Below the pieces are notes generated by a model. It was given only the letters and a program-made list of their open reading frames with translations. It was not told the origin of the DNA and searched no databases. A program made the translations under genes and the position numbers. Positions 8,152 to 59,155 of a stretch of DNA of 64,000 bases are shown here, one piece after another (position 1 is the stretch's first letter; each line of letters starts with the position of its first letter). Source of the stretch: Halalkalicoccus tibetensis (GTDB lineage Archaea > Halobacteriota > Halobacteria > Halobacteriales > Halalkalicoccaceae); NCBI RefSeq assembly GCF_037996645.1, contig NZ_JBBMXV010000004.1:273684-337683 (forward strand). Reading direction: 5' to 3'.

Positions 8152-8452
8152 CGTCCGACCCATCCCTTGCGGATCTCGACGGATGATCAGTTGGGTCGCT
8201 GACAACACGTTATTCTTCCTCTGTTCCTTTGAGCGGAATCTACTACCGGAACGCACCCGTCCCTCCCCGGGGTAGCCTCGGGTGCCGGCTGCCGAAGGGG
8301 GTTACCGTCGATCGGACCTCCTTCGGGGCTCGGTCTTCCCTTTCGAGGCGACCTCCGATCCCGGAGCACCGTCTCTCTTCACATGGGCCACTGTTCGTCA
8401 CGTTCGCCCCTCGGGAACGCTTTTGACGCCGCCGGGTGTTGTCTACCGTATC
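8152..8452 (+). other. 301-bp intergenic stretch between leuB and adh
   Basis: A pyrimidine-rich tract at about 8205-8230 (TTATTCTTCCTCTGTTCCTTT) follows leuB and may end the operon transcript. A TATA-like element, CTTTTGA at about 8420-8426, lies about 30 bp before the adh ATG and is its probable promoter. The 30-codon frame at 8183-8275 has no promoter or supporting features. I see nothing else convincing. Confidence 0.4.
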
Positions 8453-9531: not shown

Positions 9532-10755
9532 GTGAACCAGCGCGCCCGACACACGACGAACCGGCGCCGATTCCTTCGTACTGCCGTCGCGGTCGGAACG
9601 CTCTCGGTCGCGGGCTGTGTCGACTCCTCGGACGACGAACCGAGTTCCGGAGGCAGTGACGACGATGGCGACGACAGAGAGGAAACCACCGAATTCGACG
9701 TCGAAACCGTCGCCGAAGGGTTCGCGAACCCGTGGGCCATCGAGCTCCTCCCCGAGGGGGGGATGCTCGTCACCGAGCGCGAGGGCAGGCTGTCGGTCGT
9801 CGATCCCGAGTCGGGTTCCGTCGAGTCGATCGAGGGAGGTCCCGACGTCTATGCCGCCGGCCAGGGTGGCCTGCTCGACGCCGTGCTTCACCCCGACTAC
9901 CCCGACGAGCCGTGGGTTTACCTGAGCTACTCCGACGACAACGACGCCGGCGAATCGACGACCCGTCTCGGCCGGGGTCGCCTAGAGCCCGAGGAGGGTC
10001 TGTTGGACGAGTTCGAGCAGCTCCACGTCGCCGAGCCGTTCGTCGATTCGGACGGCCACTACGGCTCGCGGATGGTCGTCGAAAACGACGCGCTCTACAT
10101 GACCGTCGGGGACCGCCAGTCGGGGGAGTTCGGCCCCGACCACGTCTCACAGGACACGACGAACGAACTCGGAACCACGCTCAGATTGGCGCTCGACGGG
10201 TCGGTTCCCGAGGACAACCCCTTTATCGGGGAAGGGGGGTTCGTCGAGACGATCTACAGCTACGGGCACCGGAACGCACAGGGGATGACGGTCCGTCCCG
10301 AGACGGGCGATATCTGGCAGTCGGAACACGGCGAGGAGGACGGCGACGAGATCAACGTGATCGAGGCGGGCGGCAACTACGGCTGGCCGGTCGCGACCTA
10401 CGGCTGTGCGTACGGCACGGACGACCCCGTGGGAGAGGACCCCGACGAGCGCGAAGACACCATTGCGCCCGTTTATCACTGGGAGTGCGGTTCGGGTGGG
10501 TTTCCGCCCGCCGGCATGACCTTCTATGACGGCGAGGCGTTCCCCGACTGGGAGGGGGATCTGTTCGTCGGGAACCTCGCGGGCGAGTATCTCGGGCGGT
10601 TTTCGGTCGACGGTCGGGAGGTCGAGGAACTCGATCCCCTGTTGGCTGACGAGGGCTGGCGAGTCCGTGACGTGGCGGTCGCACCCGGGACGGGCCACCT
10701 TTACGTGGCCGTCGACGGCGGGGACGCCCCGATCGTTCGCCTGCAACCCGCCTGA
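9532..10755 (+). CDS. Tat-exported lipoprotein, soluble aldose/sorbosone dehydrogenase family (PQQ-type beta-propeller)
   Basis: This 407-residue protein begins with a Tat motif (RRRFLRT, residues 11-17) and lipobox SVAGC (Cys29), followed by an acidic Ser/Asp linker, so it is predicted to be anchored outside the membrane. The body matches the YliI/GdhB six-bladed propeller family: FANPWAIELLPEG, GGLLDAVLHPDY, GHRNAQGM, EHGEEDGDEIN and NYGWP. Start is GTG at 9532. PQQ dependence is known for the family but not shown here; no PQQ synthesis genes are in the window. Confidence 0.88.
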   Translation: MNQRARHTTNRRRFLRTAVAVGTLSVAGCVDSSDDEPSSGGSDDDGDDREETTEFDVETVAEGFANPWAIELLPEGGMLVTEREGRLSVVDPESGSVESIEGGPDVYAAGQGGLLDAVLHPDYPDEPWVYLSYSDDNDAGESTTRLGRGRLEPEEGLLDEFEQLHVAEPFVDSDGHYGSRMVVENDALYMTVGDRQSGEFGPDHVSQDTTNELGTTLRLALDGSVPEDNPFIGEGGFVETIYSYGHRNAQGMTVRPETGDIWQSEHGEEDGDEINVIEAGGNYGWPVATYGCAYGTDDPVGEDPDEREDTIAPVYHWECGSGGFPPAGMTFYDGEAFPDWEGDLFVGNLAGEYLGRFSVDGREVEELDPLLADEGWRVRDVAVAPGTGHLYVAVDGGDAPIVRLQPA

Positions 10756-10817
10756 TCGAGCCGTCGGATCGGCCCGAAAGACACAACGGTAATTGTGCCG
10801 CGCTCTGCAGACGGGGT

Positions 10818-12089
10818 ATGAACGTCGATCAGAACCGGCTTCGCGAGGACATCGAACGAACCGCCGAGTTCGGGCGGATCGAGAGCGAGGAGGGACGGGG
10901 GCGGACGGTGCCCGCGGCGAGCGAGGCCAACGGGCGGGCCCGTGAGTACCTCGTCGAACGCTTAGAGGACGCCGGCCTCGAGGTCCGGGTCGACGCCGTC
11001 GGCAACGTCGTCGGCCGGTGGACGCCCGAAAGCGCCGACCCCGACGCGAAGCCCGTCGCGGCGGGCAGCCACCTCGACTCGGTGCCCGCGGGCGGGATCT
11101 TCGACGGTCCCTTAGGTACCTACGGCGCCCTCGAGGCCGTCCGCACGATGCGGGAAGCCGGCGCCGAGCCCGATCGCCCGATCGCCGTCGTCTGTTTCAC
11201 CGAGGAGGAGGGCGGCCGGTTCGGCTCGGGGATGCTCGGCTCGTCGGTCGCCGCCGGGGAGCGAAGCGTCGAGGAGGCGCTCGCGCTGGAGGACGACGAC
11301 GGGGTGAGCCTCGAAAGGGCTCTGGAGGAGATCGGCTTTCGCGGCGAGGGCCGGGTCAACGCCGCGGGCTGGGACGCGTGGCTCGAGCTACATATCGAGC
11401 AGAGCGAGCGGCTGGAGACCGTCGGCGTCCCCGTCGGGATCGTCACCGACATCACCGGGATCACACACTGTGACGTGACCGTCCGGGGCGAGGCGAACCA
11501 CGCCGGGGCCACTCCCATGCGGGATCGGACCGACGCGCTGGCGGCCGCAAGCGAGTTCGTCCTCGACGTCGAGCGCGCGGCAAAGGAGGTCGTCGTGGGG
11601 AAAAGCGAGACGGCCGTGGGGACCGTCGGCAGCCACTCGGTCGAGCCGAACGCGACCAACGTCGTCCCCGGTCGTGTGGAATGCGGGGTCGACGTCCGTG
11701 ACGTCGAGTACGGTTCGATGAACGAGATCGTCTCGCGGGCACGATCCAGCCTCGCGCGCCTCGAGGCCGAGCGGGGCGTCGAGACCGAGCTGACGAGGGA
11801 GTTCGACGTCGAGCCCGTCTCGATGGCCGGGCGCTGTCGGGACGCGGCCCGCGGGGCCGCGGAGGCCGCGGGGATCACGACGATGGCGATGCACTCGGGA
11901 GCGGCCCACGACACGATGCAGGTCGCGCGCGTCACCGACGCCGGCTTGCTCTTCGCGCCCTCGCGGGACGGCTACTCGCATACGCCCAAGGAGTGGACCG
12001 ATTGGGAGGACTGTGCGACCGCGACGCAGGTGCTCGCGGGCGGGATGGCGCGGCTCGCGGGGACGACGTTTTCGGATACGACTCGCTAA
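10818..12089 (+). CDS. M20-family amidohydrolase, N-carbamoyl-L-amino-acid hydrolase/allantoate amidohydrolase type
   Basis: This 423-residue binuclear metalloenzyme should hydrolyse N-carbamoyl amino acids or a ureide. The family motifs are GSHLDSVPAGGIFDGPLG (metal ligands H and D), TEEEGGRFGSGMLGS (catalytic and metal glutamates), LHIEQSERLE and the late HSGAAHDTMQ histidine ligand. A lid/dimerisation domain lies between. No hydantoinase partner is adjacent, so substrate remains open. It ends by overlapping the convergent transporter gene by 4 bp. Confidence 0.88.
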   Translation: MNVDQNRLREDIERTAEFGRIESEEGRGRTVPAASEANGRAREYLVERLEDAGLEVRVDAVGNVVGRWTPESADPDAKPVAAGSHLDSVPAGGIFDGPLGTYGALEAVRTMREAGAEPDRPIAVVCFTEEEGGRFGSGMLGSSVAAGERSVEEALALEDDDGVSLERALEEIGFRGEGRVNAAGWDAWLELHIEQSERLETVGVPVGIVTDITGITHCDVTVRGEANHAGATPMRDRTDALAAASEFVLDVERAAKEVVVGKSETAVGTVGSHSVEPNATNVVPGRVECGVDVRDVEYGSMNEIVSRARSSLARLEAERGVETELTREFDVEPVSMAGRCRDAARGAAEAAGITTMAMHSGAAHDTMQVARVTDAGLLFAPSRDGYSHTPKEWTDWEDCATATQVLAGGMARLAGTTFSDTTR

Positions 12090-54654: not shown

Positions 54655-56648
54655 TCGCCCGCGGCGGGATTGCCCCCTAACCGCCCGATCGTCGCCAGCC
54701 GAATCGCGTGGGGCCAACCGAGCGGCGTCGCGCTGTCGGGTGTGCCGTCGTCGAAGAACTGCTCGGGGAGGTACGCACCCCGACAGAGCGCGCCCTCGGG
54801 CGCGATCAGCGAGAACAGCTCCCGGGCGCGTTCGTCCGCCCGCGCCGCACCCTCCTCCCGGCCGTACTCCGCGAGCAGGTCCGCGAGGGACGCGTTGGCG
54901 TGGGCCCCCCACGCCGTCGAGACCGTCCAGACCTTCTCCGCGCCCTGCTCGCGGGTCCGCCAGTCGTCGCCCTCGTAGCGGATCAGCCCGGCGATCGAGT
55001 CGGGATCGCGATACAGCCCCTCACAGAGCGTCTCGGCGTGGGTCGCGAGGCGGTCCAGCCGTTCGTCGTCGACCGTAGCGACCTCCGCGTAGGCCTCGTG
55101 AGCGCCCACCAGCGCCAGCGCGCTCGAATCGAGCCGGTCGTCCAGCTCGCCCCCGCGCAGGCGGAGGGCGTAGGCGCCGCGCTCGGCCGACCAGAGCTCG
55201 TCGATCGCCCCGTAGACCCGTGCCGCCTGCTCCGCGGCGCGGTCGGTAACGGAGCCGTCGAGCGGGGCGCGCGCCAGCGCCGCGTAGGCCTCGAGGAAGG
55301 TCGCCGCCGTGTTCGAAAAGCGCCCCTCCATGTCCTCCCAGGCGTTCTGACAGGGCTCGGGCAGGCCGTCCTCGGCGAGCGAGTCGTCGAGGCCCTCAAG
55401 TGCAGCCCCGAGGGTGTCCCGGATCTCGTCCGCGAGCTCCGGCGAGACCTCGCCCTCGCGGAGATACGCCGCGAGGAAGGCGACGACGCTGCCGGTCTGG
55501 TCGGCCTGATAGGCCGTGCCGTCGCCCGCTTCGAGCCGGCCGTTCGCCCAGCCGGGTGCGAGCGAACCGTCGAACGACCAGACGCGGTGGGGCCAGGTGC
55601 CGTCCTCGCGCTGGGTCCGGCAGAAGAACCGCGCGCTCGCGGCGTGGCGCTCCGAGAGGTCGATCCCCAGACCCTCGTCGGCCTCGAGCAGGAACGAGGA
55701 GACCTCGCCGTCGTCGCGGAACCAGGTGTAGCCGTAGCCACCCGAATAGGCCGAATAGGGGTCGAACTCCGGGCCGGCGATCCGCGCGCCCGTCGGCGCC
55801 GAGAGCAAGTCGAGCACCCGCAGGTCGTCGGCGACCGAACCGGGCAGCCCCTCGATACCGGGGCGCGAGCCGGCGACCTGCTTTTCGGCCGATTCACGGA
55901 GCTCCTCGGGCGAACCGTGGCTCTCGAGGAACGCCGAGAGGGTCTCGAGCGCCGCCTTCCGATCGGTCTCCTCCCGGTCCGTCAGTAGGGTCCCGACCGT
56001 CGTGCCGTTCCCGAGGGGCGCGCGGGCGAGCGCCGTCCCGCCCAGTCGGTCGTTCTCGTAGCGGTCGTCCCCGTCGAGTTCGCGGGGCGCCTCGCCCCGC
56101 AGCACCGCGTCGAACGCGATCGGCGGGCGGGTCCCGTACTCCCCCGCCGCGGCGCCGAGGTAGTCGTGTTCGCGACGGTGGTAGACCTCGACAGCGTCCT
56201 CGTGGACGAGCTTGCCGAGCCGCGAGTCGCGGCCCTCGGGCGCGAACGTCGCGAGCGCGTGGAGCGAGAGCCCCTCGCCGTCCTCGCACTCGACGTGGGT
56301 GAGGTGGGCGCGTCCGACCGTGAGGTCGTACTTGGTCACCTCGAAGCCCGCCCCCGAGAGGCGCGTCTCGACGAGCGCCGTGTCGCCGACGTACCCCTGC
56401 GAGAGCGTCTCGAGTTCGTCGAACCACGTGATCCCGTCGTCGTGACCGATCCCGAAGGTCGCCCGATCGAGCCCCGAGAGCGGCGCGAGCGAGTCGGTGT
56501 GGTCCCGGAGCGCCCCGTCGGGGGCGACGTGGACGAGCCGGTCGTCGAGGCCCGAGAACAACCCTTCAGTGGTACGACGTTCCCCCGGGAATCGCGTCGG
56601 GTGGCCCTCGTTGGCGAGGTAGTCCGCGAGCGCGGCGCGAAGCGTCAT
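54651..56648 (-). CDS. Glycoside hydrolase family 15 (glucoamylase-like) protein
   Basis: This 665-residue protein has an N-terminal beta-sandwich and a C-terminal alpha/alpha barrel. [16 protein letters not shown] corresponds to the catalytic-cleft WxRD motif, and [16 protein letters not shown] contains a candidate catalytic Glu. No signal peptide is visible, so it should act inside the cell on alpha-glucans or related oligosaccharides. Confidence 0.87.
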
Positions 56649-56693
56649 TAGGCGGCTACAGCCGGCCGGGCAGGATAAAGGCCGCGTGTCTCT

Positions 56694-56966
56694 TCAGAGC
56701 AACAGCGGGACGCCGAAGGCGACCAGCAGGCCGACGACGAGGACGGCGAAGCCGATGCCGACCTGCCGCATCGAGTAGGGGCTCTGGGGAGCGGTCGTGC
56801 GTTCCGCGAGCGGCGTCTTCGTCTCGGTCTCCTTCTCGGGGGCGCTGACGGCGGCCTCCTGGGCGCCGGGGTCCTCGTCGGTCATGCCGGACGCGTCCTC
56901 GCCGGTGGCGTCGACTCGCCCCTCGGCCTCTGCCTCCTCGCTGGGAACGTGGTCGTCGTCGCTCAT
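56694..56966 (-). CDS. Tail-anchored small protein
   Basis: This 90-residue protein from ATG 56966 is acidic for 65 residues and ends in one hydrophobic helix (VGIGFAVLVVGLLVAFGVPLLL without the last residue as tail). The layout is a C-terminal tail anchor with a disordered cytoplasmic region. Function unknown. A GTTTAAGA TATA box lies about 25 bp upstream. Confidence 0.7.
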   Translation of the reverse strand: MSDDDHVPSEEAEAEGRVDATGEDASGMTDEDPGAQEAAVSAPEKETETKTPLAERTTAPQSPYSMRQVGIGFAVLVVGLLVAFGVPLLL

Positions 56967-56968
56967 AC

Positions 56969-56989
56969 GCCACGTTCGTTCCGCGTGGC
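56969..56989 (-). repeat. Inverted repeat between TATA and start of the tail-anchored gene
   Basis: GCCACG (56969-56974) and CGTGGC (56984-56989) flank a 9-nt spacer right after the TATA box. It may be an operator or a 5'-UTR hairpin. Confidence 0.4.
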
Positions 56990-57080
56990 TCTTAAACGCA
57001 CCCATCGCCGGTCGAAACGCTCAACCCGGTATCGCGCGAAGCCTCGGCAACGAATGCTTACGATGTGTTACTAATATGTT

Positions 57081-57752
57081 TCAGGAACCATCGTAAAAGA
57101 AAGCAAGATAGATTACTATGAACGTCCCAGAAGCATAAATTGATAGAAAAGCATTAGATAAAATTTGTCTAACAGGAAATTCTAATGACGAGTAAATAGT
57201 TGCCTGCAAGTATAATTCGATTCCTAGGGTTATCATCGCAATAGTGAATCCAGTAAGGATTACAATAGTTATATACGATAGACTACAATATCGTTCAATA
57301 GTTGACGATATGTGGAAAATGGATATAAATGAGATATAGAAAATAACGAGAAACACCGCACCAGAGATGAACTGTATCCATGCATCTAAAAACCTCGCAA
57401 TAACTATAGAAAGAATGGAAATAACTATTCCATTAAAAAATACTAATAAAACACAAGGAAAAATATTACTCTTTTGAGGAAACAATACTGGCACACCTCG
57501 AAATTCCTGATATCTCCGCCTATAAATTCTGTTTATCAGATACCCAATTGAAAGAAATATTGAAAGGCTTGAAAGAACTCCGACATCAATGGCGAGATCT
57601 AAGTAGTCAGCAGGTAGTTCTACGGGGAGAGTACCGAGATAGACCGATATAGCCCCAAAAATGCCAAAAATAGCGAATAGATGCGAATATTCTTCTAAAA
57701 AGTTATTCGCAAATTCCAAAAAATCATCTGTATTTGATGCTGCTTCAGACAT
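57081..57752 (-). CDS. AT-rich six-helix membrane protein of unknown family
   Basis: This 223-residue protein has about six hydrophobic segments (for example LFAIFGIFGAISVYLGTL, CVLLVFFNGIVISILSIVIA, ISFISIFHIS) with a soluble N-terminal stretch and a basic loop NRIYRRRYQEFRG. It is Ile/Phe/Tyr-rich, unlike host proteins. It is the downstream gene of the island pair. No family is recognised. Confidence 0.65.
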   Translation of the reverse strand: MSEAASNTDDFLEFANNFLEEYSHLFAIFGIFGAISVYLGTLPVELPADYLDLAIDVGVLSSLSIFLSIGYLINRIYRRRYQEFRGVPVLFPQKSNIFPCVLLVFFNGIVISILSIVIARFLDAWIQFISGAVFLVIFYISFISIFHISSTIERYCSLSYITIVILTGFTIAMITLGIELYLQATIYSSLEFPVRQILSNAFLSIYASGTFIVIYLAFFYDGS

Positions 57753-57809
57753 ACATTTTGTAATGTAGATTCTGACACTTGTGTCTCTCGCTTCTGAATA
57801 TCTTATTGT

Positions 57810-58265
57810 TTACTCGGGAGGCCAGTCATCTTTAAGGTCAAAATCATCATTCAAAACTAGGACCAGCGTTGAAAGGATCGTTAATGGAATTGCAGCTATT
57901 GGCCAGATATAAAACGTAAATTCATAATACGATTCTAGATCAGATATGAGATAAAACGTAATAATTCCTATATAGCAGTCAGCGATTAGAGTGTACCAGC
58001 GAGGTATTTCGATATCAGCAGCAAGATGTGGCATCCTCTGTACAAAAAGAAGAGTAGCGACACCTTCTAATCCAATTGCAATGGCTACTGCAACCTCAGA
58101 ATCGCGCGGTAGAATTAGCACTAACACGATACAAACCACCATTACATGAAGTGCGTATGAACTATAGTAGATCTCCCACATCCGTTTCAAACGACTTCTA
58201 ACCATCAACAAGTATAGCAGCAGTCTCAGTGTATTTATTTTAGGATTGTTTCTCGGTACTTTCAT
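57810..58265 (-). CDS. AT-rich four-helix membrane protein of unknown family
   Basis: This 151-residue protein has a basic N-terminal segment (VRSRLKRMWEIYYSSY) and four hydrophobic helices (VMVVCIVLVLIL, VAVAIAIGLEGVATLLF, LIADCYIGIITFYLI, AAIPLTILSTLVLVL), ending in acidic DDWPPE. It is 57 bp upstream of the six-helix gene and divergent from hisF, so the two may form one unit. Unknown function. Confidence 0.65.
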   Translation of the reverse strand: MKVPRNNPKINTLRLLLYLLMVRSRLKRMWEIYYSSYALHVMVVCIVLVLILPRDSEVAVAIAIGLEGVATLLFVQRMPHLAADIEIPRWYTLIADCYIGIITFYLISDLESYYEFTFYIWPIAAIPLTILSTLVLVLNDDFDLKDDWPPE

Positions 58266-58339
58266 CCAGTATGCTTATCCGAAACCCTCTCTACCCTGCT
58301 ACCGATAATGAGAACTAGAATGAGAAATTTTGTGAGAGT

Positions 58340-59155
58340 ATGACACTAACCAAACGCATCATCCCCTGCATCGACGTCGACGTCGACGAGGACGGCAACG
58401 CGGCGGTCTATACCGGCGTCAACTTCGAGGACCTCGAGTACACCGGCGACCCAGTCGAGATGGCGAAGGCCTACAACGAGTCGGGCGCCGACGAGTTCGT
58501 CTTCCTCGACATCACCGCGAGCGCCGACGGCCGCGAGACCATGCTCGACACCGTCTCGCGGGTCGCCGACGAGGTGTTCATCCCGCTGACCGTCGGCGGC
58601 GGGATCAGGGAGAAGGCAGACATCAAGGAGACGCTCAGGGCCGGCGCGGACAAGGTCTCGATCAACACCGGCGCGCTCGAACGCCCCGAGCTAATCACCG
58701 AAGGGGCCCGGGCCTTCGGCAGCCAGTGCATCGTCATCAGCGTCGACTCGAAGCGCCGCTTCGACGAGCAGGGCGAACACTACGCCCAGGTCGACGGCGA
58801 GTCCTGCTGGTTCGAGTGCACCGTCAAGGGCGGGCGCGAGGGCACCGGCATCGACGTCGTCGAGTGGGCCGCGGAGGCCGAATCCCGCGGCGCCGGCGAG
58901 CTGTTCGTCAACTCCATCGACACCGACGGCACGAAGTCGGGCTACGACCTGCCCGTCACCCGCGCGGTCTGTGAGGCCGTCTCGACGCCGGTGATCGCCT
59001 CCTCGGGCGCCGGCGGGCCCGAACACATGCACGAGGTCTTCGAGGAGGCGGGCGCCGACGCCGCGCTCGCGGCCTCGATCTTCCACTTTGGCGAGTACTC
59101 CATCGAGGAGGTCAAGGAGTACCTCGCGGAGCGCGACGTCCCGATCCGGTTCTGA
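58340..59155 (+). CDS. hisF: Imidazole glycerol phosphate synthase, cyclase subunit
   Basis: This 271-residue TIM barrel forms IGP and AICAR from PRFAR with ammonia from HisH. The catalytic aspartates are in [10 protein letters not shown] and VISVDSKRR, and phosphate-binding motifs are LTVGGGIR and SSGAGG. No other his gene is nearby. The AT-rich island ends immediately upstream, so its promoter region appears altered. Confidence 0.96.

Follow-up and report, generated by a model that had tools for sequence, protein, structure and literature searches.

The DNA directly before hisF in Halalkalicoccus tibetensis raises two questions: how an AT-rich segment came to interrupt a GC-rich haloarchaeal chromosome at a biosynthetic gene, and what the two membrane-protein genes that it carries do. 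The window analyzed is a stretch of 64,000 nucleotides of contig NZ_JBBMXV010000004.1. The following features were delimited in it:

56694..57005, minus strand: p103, a conserved 103-aa one-helix gene, left neighbour of hisF in many Halobacteria
57013..57063, plus strand: native hisF promoter-like motif and native start, now a stub; conserved in L030, L031, L032, L034 and L035
57064..58351, no strand: AT-rich insert, delimited by comparison with the hisF leaders of six congeners; both boundaries are accurate to a few bases
57081..57752, minus strand: P1, 223 aa, about 6 TM helices, member of a protein family (from ORF, family search and alignment)
57810..58265, minus strand: P2, 151 aa, about 4 TM helices (from ORF, searches, shuffle test and hydropathy)
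58280..58289, plus strand: second promoter-like motif, CGAAACCCTC, ahead of the new hisF start; 10-base match to the leaders of three congeners
58340..59155, plus strand: hisF, its start replaced (from ORF and comparison with relatives)

An AT-rich island separates p103 from hisF

The insert is 1,288 bp long and has a GC content of 36.5%, set in haloarchaeal DNA of about 70% GC (68.8% in the 10 kb on the left, 70.6% on the right). Apart from this segment, no stretch of 1,200 bp in the 64 kb falls below 63.6% GC. GC at third codon positions (GC3) is 0.28 for P1 and 0.36 for P2, whereas 50 other ORFs picked in the window range upward from 0.62, with a median of 0.91. The sequence-only reading had described an abrupt change in composition and codon use at this place, and these values bear it out. 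Its description of two multi-helix membrane proteins in one orientation also held: hydropathy gave about six helices for P1 and four for P2, and both genes, 57 bp apart, lie on the minus strand between p103 and hisF, divergent from the latter. The mobility gene that it had reported missing was not found here either: the 64-kb window gave neither integrase-like matches nor proteins like those of Halorubrum pleomorphic virus 9 (HRPV9). An Rfam search over 56500-58700 gave no match.

Comparison with the empty site in relatives had been set beforehand as a test of the insertion. Finding these genes here in every relative would have refuted it. Instead, hisF was recovered from each of the 31 genomes in the initial search for relatives (own genome included), and none of six congeners examined carried the island. 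Four of them have a tight empty site with 85-93 bp between p103 and hisF, and the remaining two have gaps of 636 and 798 bp occupied by GC-rich sequence; in the window the gap is 1,373 bp. The presence of an AT-rich foreign island before hisF is thus confirmed, and its provenance by horizontal acquisition is well supported.

The interval between p103 and hisF was surveyed in 60 fetched loci (L138-L197), hand-picked for genus spread from 194 genomes. Among the 33 that retain p103 near hisF, ten have gaps of more than 450 bp, filled by unrelated, mostly GC-rich genes. Genome G070, from another family (L127; region also in L036), has an AT-rich (38% GC) 151-aa ORF with 4 TM helices in the interval, which matched neither P2 nor the P1 profile in the tests run; in its congener G125 (L141) the interval is tight, at 148 bp. 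Together, the wide gaps and the G070 ORF indicate that the interval tolerates insertions repeatedly. A hotspot specific to the island was considered and rejected: insertions are tolerated here, yet nothing sets the island apart.

The insert supplies the present start of hisF

The insertion point lies inside the start of hisF. In five of the six congeners the gene starts with ATGCTnAC(C/G)AA(A/G)CG (L033 differs), and a conserved TCGAAAC(C/G)CTCAACCC motif precedes congener hisF. In the window, the ancestral start ATGCTTACGA is found at 57054-57063, left of the island, with the native promoter-like motif CGAAACGCTC at 57013, and what remains there of hisF is a six-codon stub, MLTMCY*. The right junction reads ATGACACTAACC AAACGC, so that the hisF protein begins with MTLTKR in place of MLTKR. 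The reading frame of hisF is intact.

The insert had been thought to end 5 bp short of hisF; in fact, it provides the present start codon and the first codons. The suggestion that it replaced the promoter holds in part. A second promoter-like motif, CGAAACCCTC at 58280, precedes the new start, while the native one was left behind at 57013. The CGAAACCCTC sequence is a single copy in the 64-kb window and matches the native hisF leaders of L030, L032 and L035 over 10 bases. Leader-wide comparison with 1000 shuffles each gave p values of 0.005 for L030 and 0.003 for L032, and none of the 1000 shuffles reached the value for L035; four other leaders were not significant in this comparison. Judged by sequence, then, the right end of the insert gives hisF a new promoter-like motif as well as a new start.

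The first 60 bp of hisF are 0.88 identical to other lineages (L046, L053), compared to 0.75-0.83 for congeners. From the second bin on, identity to congeners is mostly 0.83-0.97, with one variable bin at 0.72-0.83 and a few lower values. Since the beginning of the gene is closest to other lineages, we infer a foreign origin for the right end of the island.

ATGCTTA repeats, earlier proposed as insertion borders, are present at 57054 and 58271 but do not bracket the insert. Native sequence goes on after the left copy and not after the right one, and the pair is therefore not a target-site duplication. No convincing terminal repeats, inverted or otherwise, were found for the island. A transposon or insertion sequence was rejected on these grounds and because no integrase-like match exists in the window.

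P1 belongs to a divergent family of membrane proteins

When P1 was searched as a single sequence, 22 of 292 class genomes gave matches at E <=0.01 (own genome included; the weakest are at chance level). A profile of alignment A1, made of window P1 and 14 of the single-sequence matches (15 sequences), extended this to 36 of the 391 Halobacteria genomes searched, from 20 of 86 genera, counting the own genome and two marginal cases, G009 and G015. Neither the five other congeners covered by that search nor the only further member of the host family was matched by the profile. A search of the phylum with the family detected 16 of 294 genomes, seven of them outside the class, and a search of genome_contigs with alignment A2 detected two loci.

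The family is divergent and mostly has 5-7 TM helices. Alignment A1 revealed a motif in the first helix, F[LI]..[N]..LF...G[VI]F.A.SVY[LI], ahead of which the N-terminus is variable. Window P1, also aligned with 36 class members, HRPV9 ORF22 and nine members from outside the class, carries this motif as FLEEYSHLFAIFGIFGAISVYL, and it shares with the family the combination of several TM helices and low GC3 (about six helices; 0.28 against the window median of 0.91). Members in L221-L224 and L228 have an N-terminal zinc-ribbon-like stretch; the first four loci are divergent, AT-rich copies in a single genome from outside the class, G617.

The statement of the sequence-only reading that the two proteins belong to no recognisable family must accordingly be divided. 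It is wrong for P1, whose family is found in 36 of 391 genomes, and right in that the family is absent from the profile libraries searched and that P2 has no convincing relative. Pfam, PADLOC, NCBIfam and PHROGs yielded nothing usable for either protein. When all 15 members of A1 were scanned, Pfam gave single weak matches and each PADLOC model matched at most two members; the best PADLOC E value was 0.11 for P1, with none for P2, and hence no known defence system was matched. Matches of P1 to PDB sequences (VP1, 84 aa, E 0.0032; KCNQ channels from 0.12) were treated as composition-driven and set aside. P1 as query gave one weak match among plasmids and none among phages, and P1 and its relatives gave none in viral_contigs. 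For the relative from Natrinema ejinorense, AlphaFold2 with one homologue reached a pLDDT of 47.5, too poor for a fold search. In the portions of the literature searched, including parts of PMC4158269, PMC7547991 and PMC10101028, nothing was recognised as describing the family; a term search of PMC10599561 returned no passage. Judged by the four profile libraries and this limited literature search, we regard the P1 family as undescribed so far.

The distribution of the family was analyzed in 36 contexts, that is, 36 places in 33 genomes, which remained of 39 place rows once the own genome and the two marginal cases (G009, G015) had been set aside. L103 and L124, which are nearly identical and come from the same genome, counted as two, and genes in the fetched loci were picked by an ORF heuristic rather than a trained gene caller. 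The GC content of the family gene is more than 0.08 below that of its flanks in 27 of the 36 loci. Of the 36 family genes, 24 have a GC3 below 0.45, as compared to 3 of the 33 other genes in these contexts with four or more TM helices (Fisher p 1e-6) and none of 29 genes of control regions from the same genomes. The family tree mixes host families and does not follow host phylogeny. By these sequence criteria the P1 family behaves like mobile accessory DNA, being AT-rich within GC-rich genomes, sporadic and at odds with the phylogeny of its hosts.

Family members occupy virus and provirus loci

With L220, a relative from outside the class, as query, a match to HRPV9 was found at E 2e-3. The matching gene, ORF22, scored E 8.7e-25 against a family profile built without it. 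ORF22 of HRPV9 (Betapleolipovirus, NC_048160) resembles P1 in belonging to the same family, in its first-helix motif, in having about 6 TM helices and in being AT-rich (44% GC, against 60% for the viral genome). It differs from P1 in its length of 346 aa with a long N-terminal extension, and in being borne by a virus, where it is annotated as a hypothetical protein, rather than by a chromosome. ORF22 is located between the structural block and the regulator gene ORF23. HRPV10, SNJ2, HHPV4, LSV-48N, Harhisp1 and HRPV13 have other small genes, or none, at this place, which is therefore a variable slot.

The corresponding place is occupied by family genes in four provirus-like loci, L097, L113, L119 and L123, where the gene lies beside or near an ORF23 homologue; L097 and L123 contain additional HRPV9-like genes. 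In L226, from outside the class, a tailed provirus identified by PHROG matches has the family member between its terminase and portal genes, on the opposite strand. Unlike HRPV9 ORF22 and these five members, window P1 is not placed within a virus or provirus. The same L226 locus carries, at 10127-10915, a second AT-rich membrane gene on the opposite strand, with no PHROG match, a candidate moron.

Markers, i.e. HRPV9 proteins and integrases, were counted within a 15-kb stretch around family genes, leaving out a synteny group of six loci from genus g15. They were present in 18 of 30 family loci and in 1 of 20 control regions (p 7e-5), the controls coming from 20 of the 33 genomes. Some integrase seeds were taken from the family contexts themselves; HRPV9 seeds alone gave 14 of 30 against 1 of 20 (p 0.0016).

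P2 and the gene pair

The P2 protein has a basic N-terminus and an acidic C-terminus. None of 2000 mononucleotide shuffles of 57753-58351 produced an ORF of 151 aa, which argues that P2 is a genuine ORF; for P1, the existence of a family does so. Among 391 class genomes P2 matched, besides itself, only a marginal stretch of 32 residues, and no convincing relative was found there; searches of phages, plasmids, viral_contigs, genome_contigs and PDB gave no match. Weak matches in L024 to L028 (E 6e-4 or worse, short or inside long proteins) were discarded as due to chance or very remote relationship. AlphaFold2 of P2 alone gave a pLDDT of 54.4, too poor for a fold search.

The two genes had been taken for a module. 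Relatives of P1 occur alone or beside varying genes and lack P2, and P2 has no convincing relative; the pairing is therefore a local one. Within the island, P2 probably represents a second accessory membrane gene, perhaps a helper.

Origin of the island and possible role of P1

Taken as a whole, the explanation that we put forward, at about even chances, is that the island contains a captured viral accessory gene for a superinfection-exclusion or antiviral membrane protein, which entered by recombination anchored in hisF. P1 would be a stray copy of a family of accessory ('moron') membrane proteins borne by viruses and proviruses in the archaeal phylum to which Halobacteria and some methanogen-like lineages belong. 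At the right end, homologous recombination within the 5' end of a foreign hisF would have brought in the leader and start; the left end would have formed by illegitimate joining. No mobility gene would be needed for such an entry. A donor with the island beside hisF was not found, and hisF is encoded in none of the 36 other family contexts. As reconstructed here, the site illustrates how a biosynthetic gene can take up another gene at its start codon while its frame stays intact and a promoter-like motif is kept.

The least certain steps concern function. P1 may reside in the cell membrane and change it in a way that bars other viruses from entry or from completing infection (superinfection exclusion), and the cell may retain P1 as an antiviral gene. 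We base this reading on the position of family members in viruses, their membrane character, their fast divergence outside the first helix and their repeated capture by chromosomes. The virus and provirus links of the family make a defence role for P1 plausible. P22 SieA, a superinfection-exclusion membrane protein of a prophage, is likewise, as far as the part of PMC10883804 consulted goes, encoded by an accessory gene of a virus and predicted to work at the membrane; the likeness is one of kind of gene, and exclusion activity is for P1 only a candidate property. The part of PMC4158269 consulted describes archaeal dark matter islands, in which fast-evolving, narrowly spread membrane-protein genes are tied to mobile elements and defence, all traits recalling P1; islands of five genes were studied there, as against two genes here, and that part does not describe the P1 family.

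In a broader form, which we consider possible but doubtful, P1 would found a phylum-wide antiviral family in which the first helix stays constant and the rest of the helix bundle changes fast, AT-rich in GC-rich hosts and found in the variable slot of betapleolipoviruses, in tailed proviruses and as solitary chromosomal genes, each member being a lone effector of superinfection exclusion or abortive infection. The family is common to the isolated virus HRPV9, to integrated proviruses belonging to two unrelated types of virus, to plasmids and to chromosomal sites without other viral genes, across about 20 genera. Most accessory genes in pleomorphic viruses of archaea bear the annotation hypothetical, and the P1 family offers a concrete candidate for archaeal superinfection exclusion.

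The function of family members is itself deduced from such contexts, and one subfamily would fit a role in the cell equally well. In genus g15 (apparently Halorussus) six loci (L099, L103-L106 and L124, two of them the near-identical copies) carry a GC-rich, host-like version of the gene in a partly conserved neighbourhood, often near a gene that we take to be GAF-domain-like. This subfamily looks like the domestication of a mobile membrane gene. Together with the single family genes that lie among ordinary host genes in L094, L109, L110 and L117, it speaks for a membrane gene that benefits the host in transport, stress or signalling, spreads horizontally and hitch-hikes on viruses with a function unrelated to them. 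We hold such a gene to be a tentative alternative, against which stand the sporadic presence, extreme divergence and AT-richness of the family and its strong marker enrichment.

Entry by an unrecognised small mobile element with ends of its own, and not by recombination with a foreign hisF, is unlikely. It would account for sharp, gene-sized boundaries such as those between L090 and L095, loci of different host families whose 82% DNA identity is essentially confined to the gene, and for the solitary gene-sized insertions; in L095 the family member also adjoins a tRNA-Leu gene (8245-8328), as at an integrase attachment site. The island in the window shows neither a convincing terminal inverted repeat nor a target duplication, however, and its right end has a leader and start of hisF type.

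A toxin-immunity or toxin-antitoxin pair is very improbable: two small adjacent membrane genes 57 bp apart in the same orientation would suit it, but P1 relatives occur without P2, co-occurrence of both genes was not found in relatives among the 391 genomes, and the four profile libraries gave no known toxin or antitoxin domain. For the earlier suggestion of a toxin-immunity or signalling module no evidence was found.

Defence genes near family loci

A search for defence genes near the pair, recommended on the basis of the sequence alone, was extended to the P1 family. Specific PADLOC matches lie near five loci: PDC-S19 (L089), type IIG (L090), LmuB-like (L101) and PDC-S31 (L112 and L114). Seventy neighbour proteins (67 of the 76 that passed a GC filter and three added by hand, the six syntenic g15 loci being left out) matched 139 PADLOC models, as compared to 47 matched by 70 control proteins, taken from 105 listed without a GC filter. 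Since the two sets were selected by different rules and the controls also had strong matches, enrichment is not established, and the defence-gene link of the family loci is suggestive only. In L228 (1639-9729), the family member adjoins ORFs of 1,359 and 413 aa, presumably P-loop ATPase-like and DUF4062-like, respectively; this may be a defence island.
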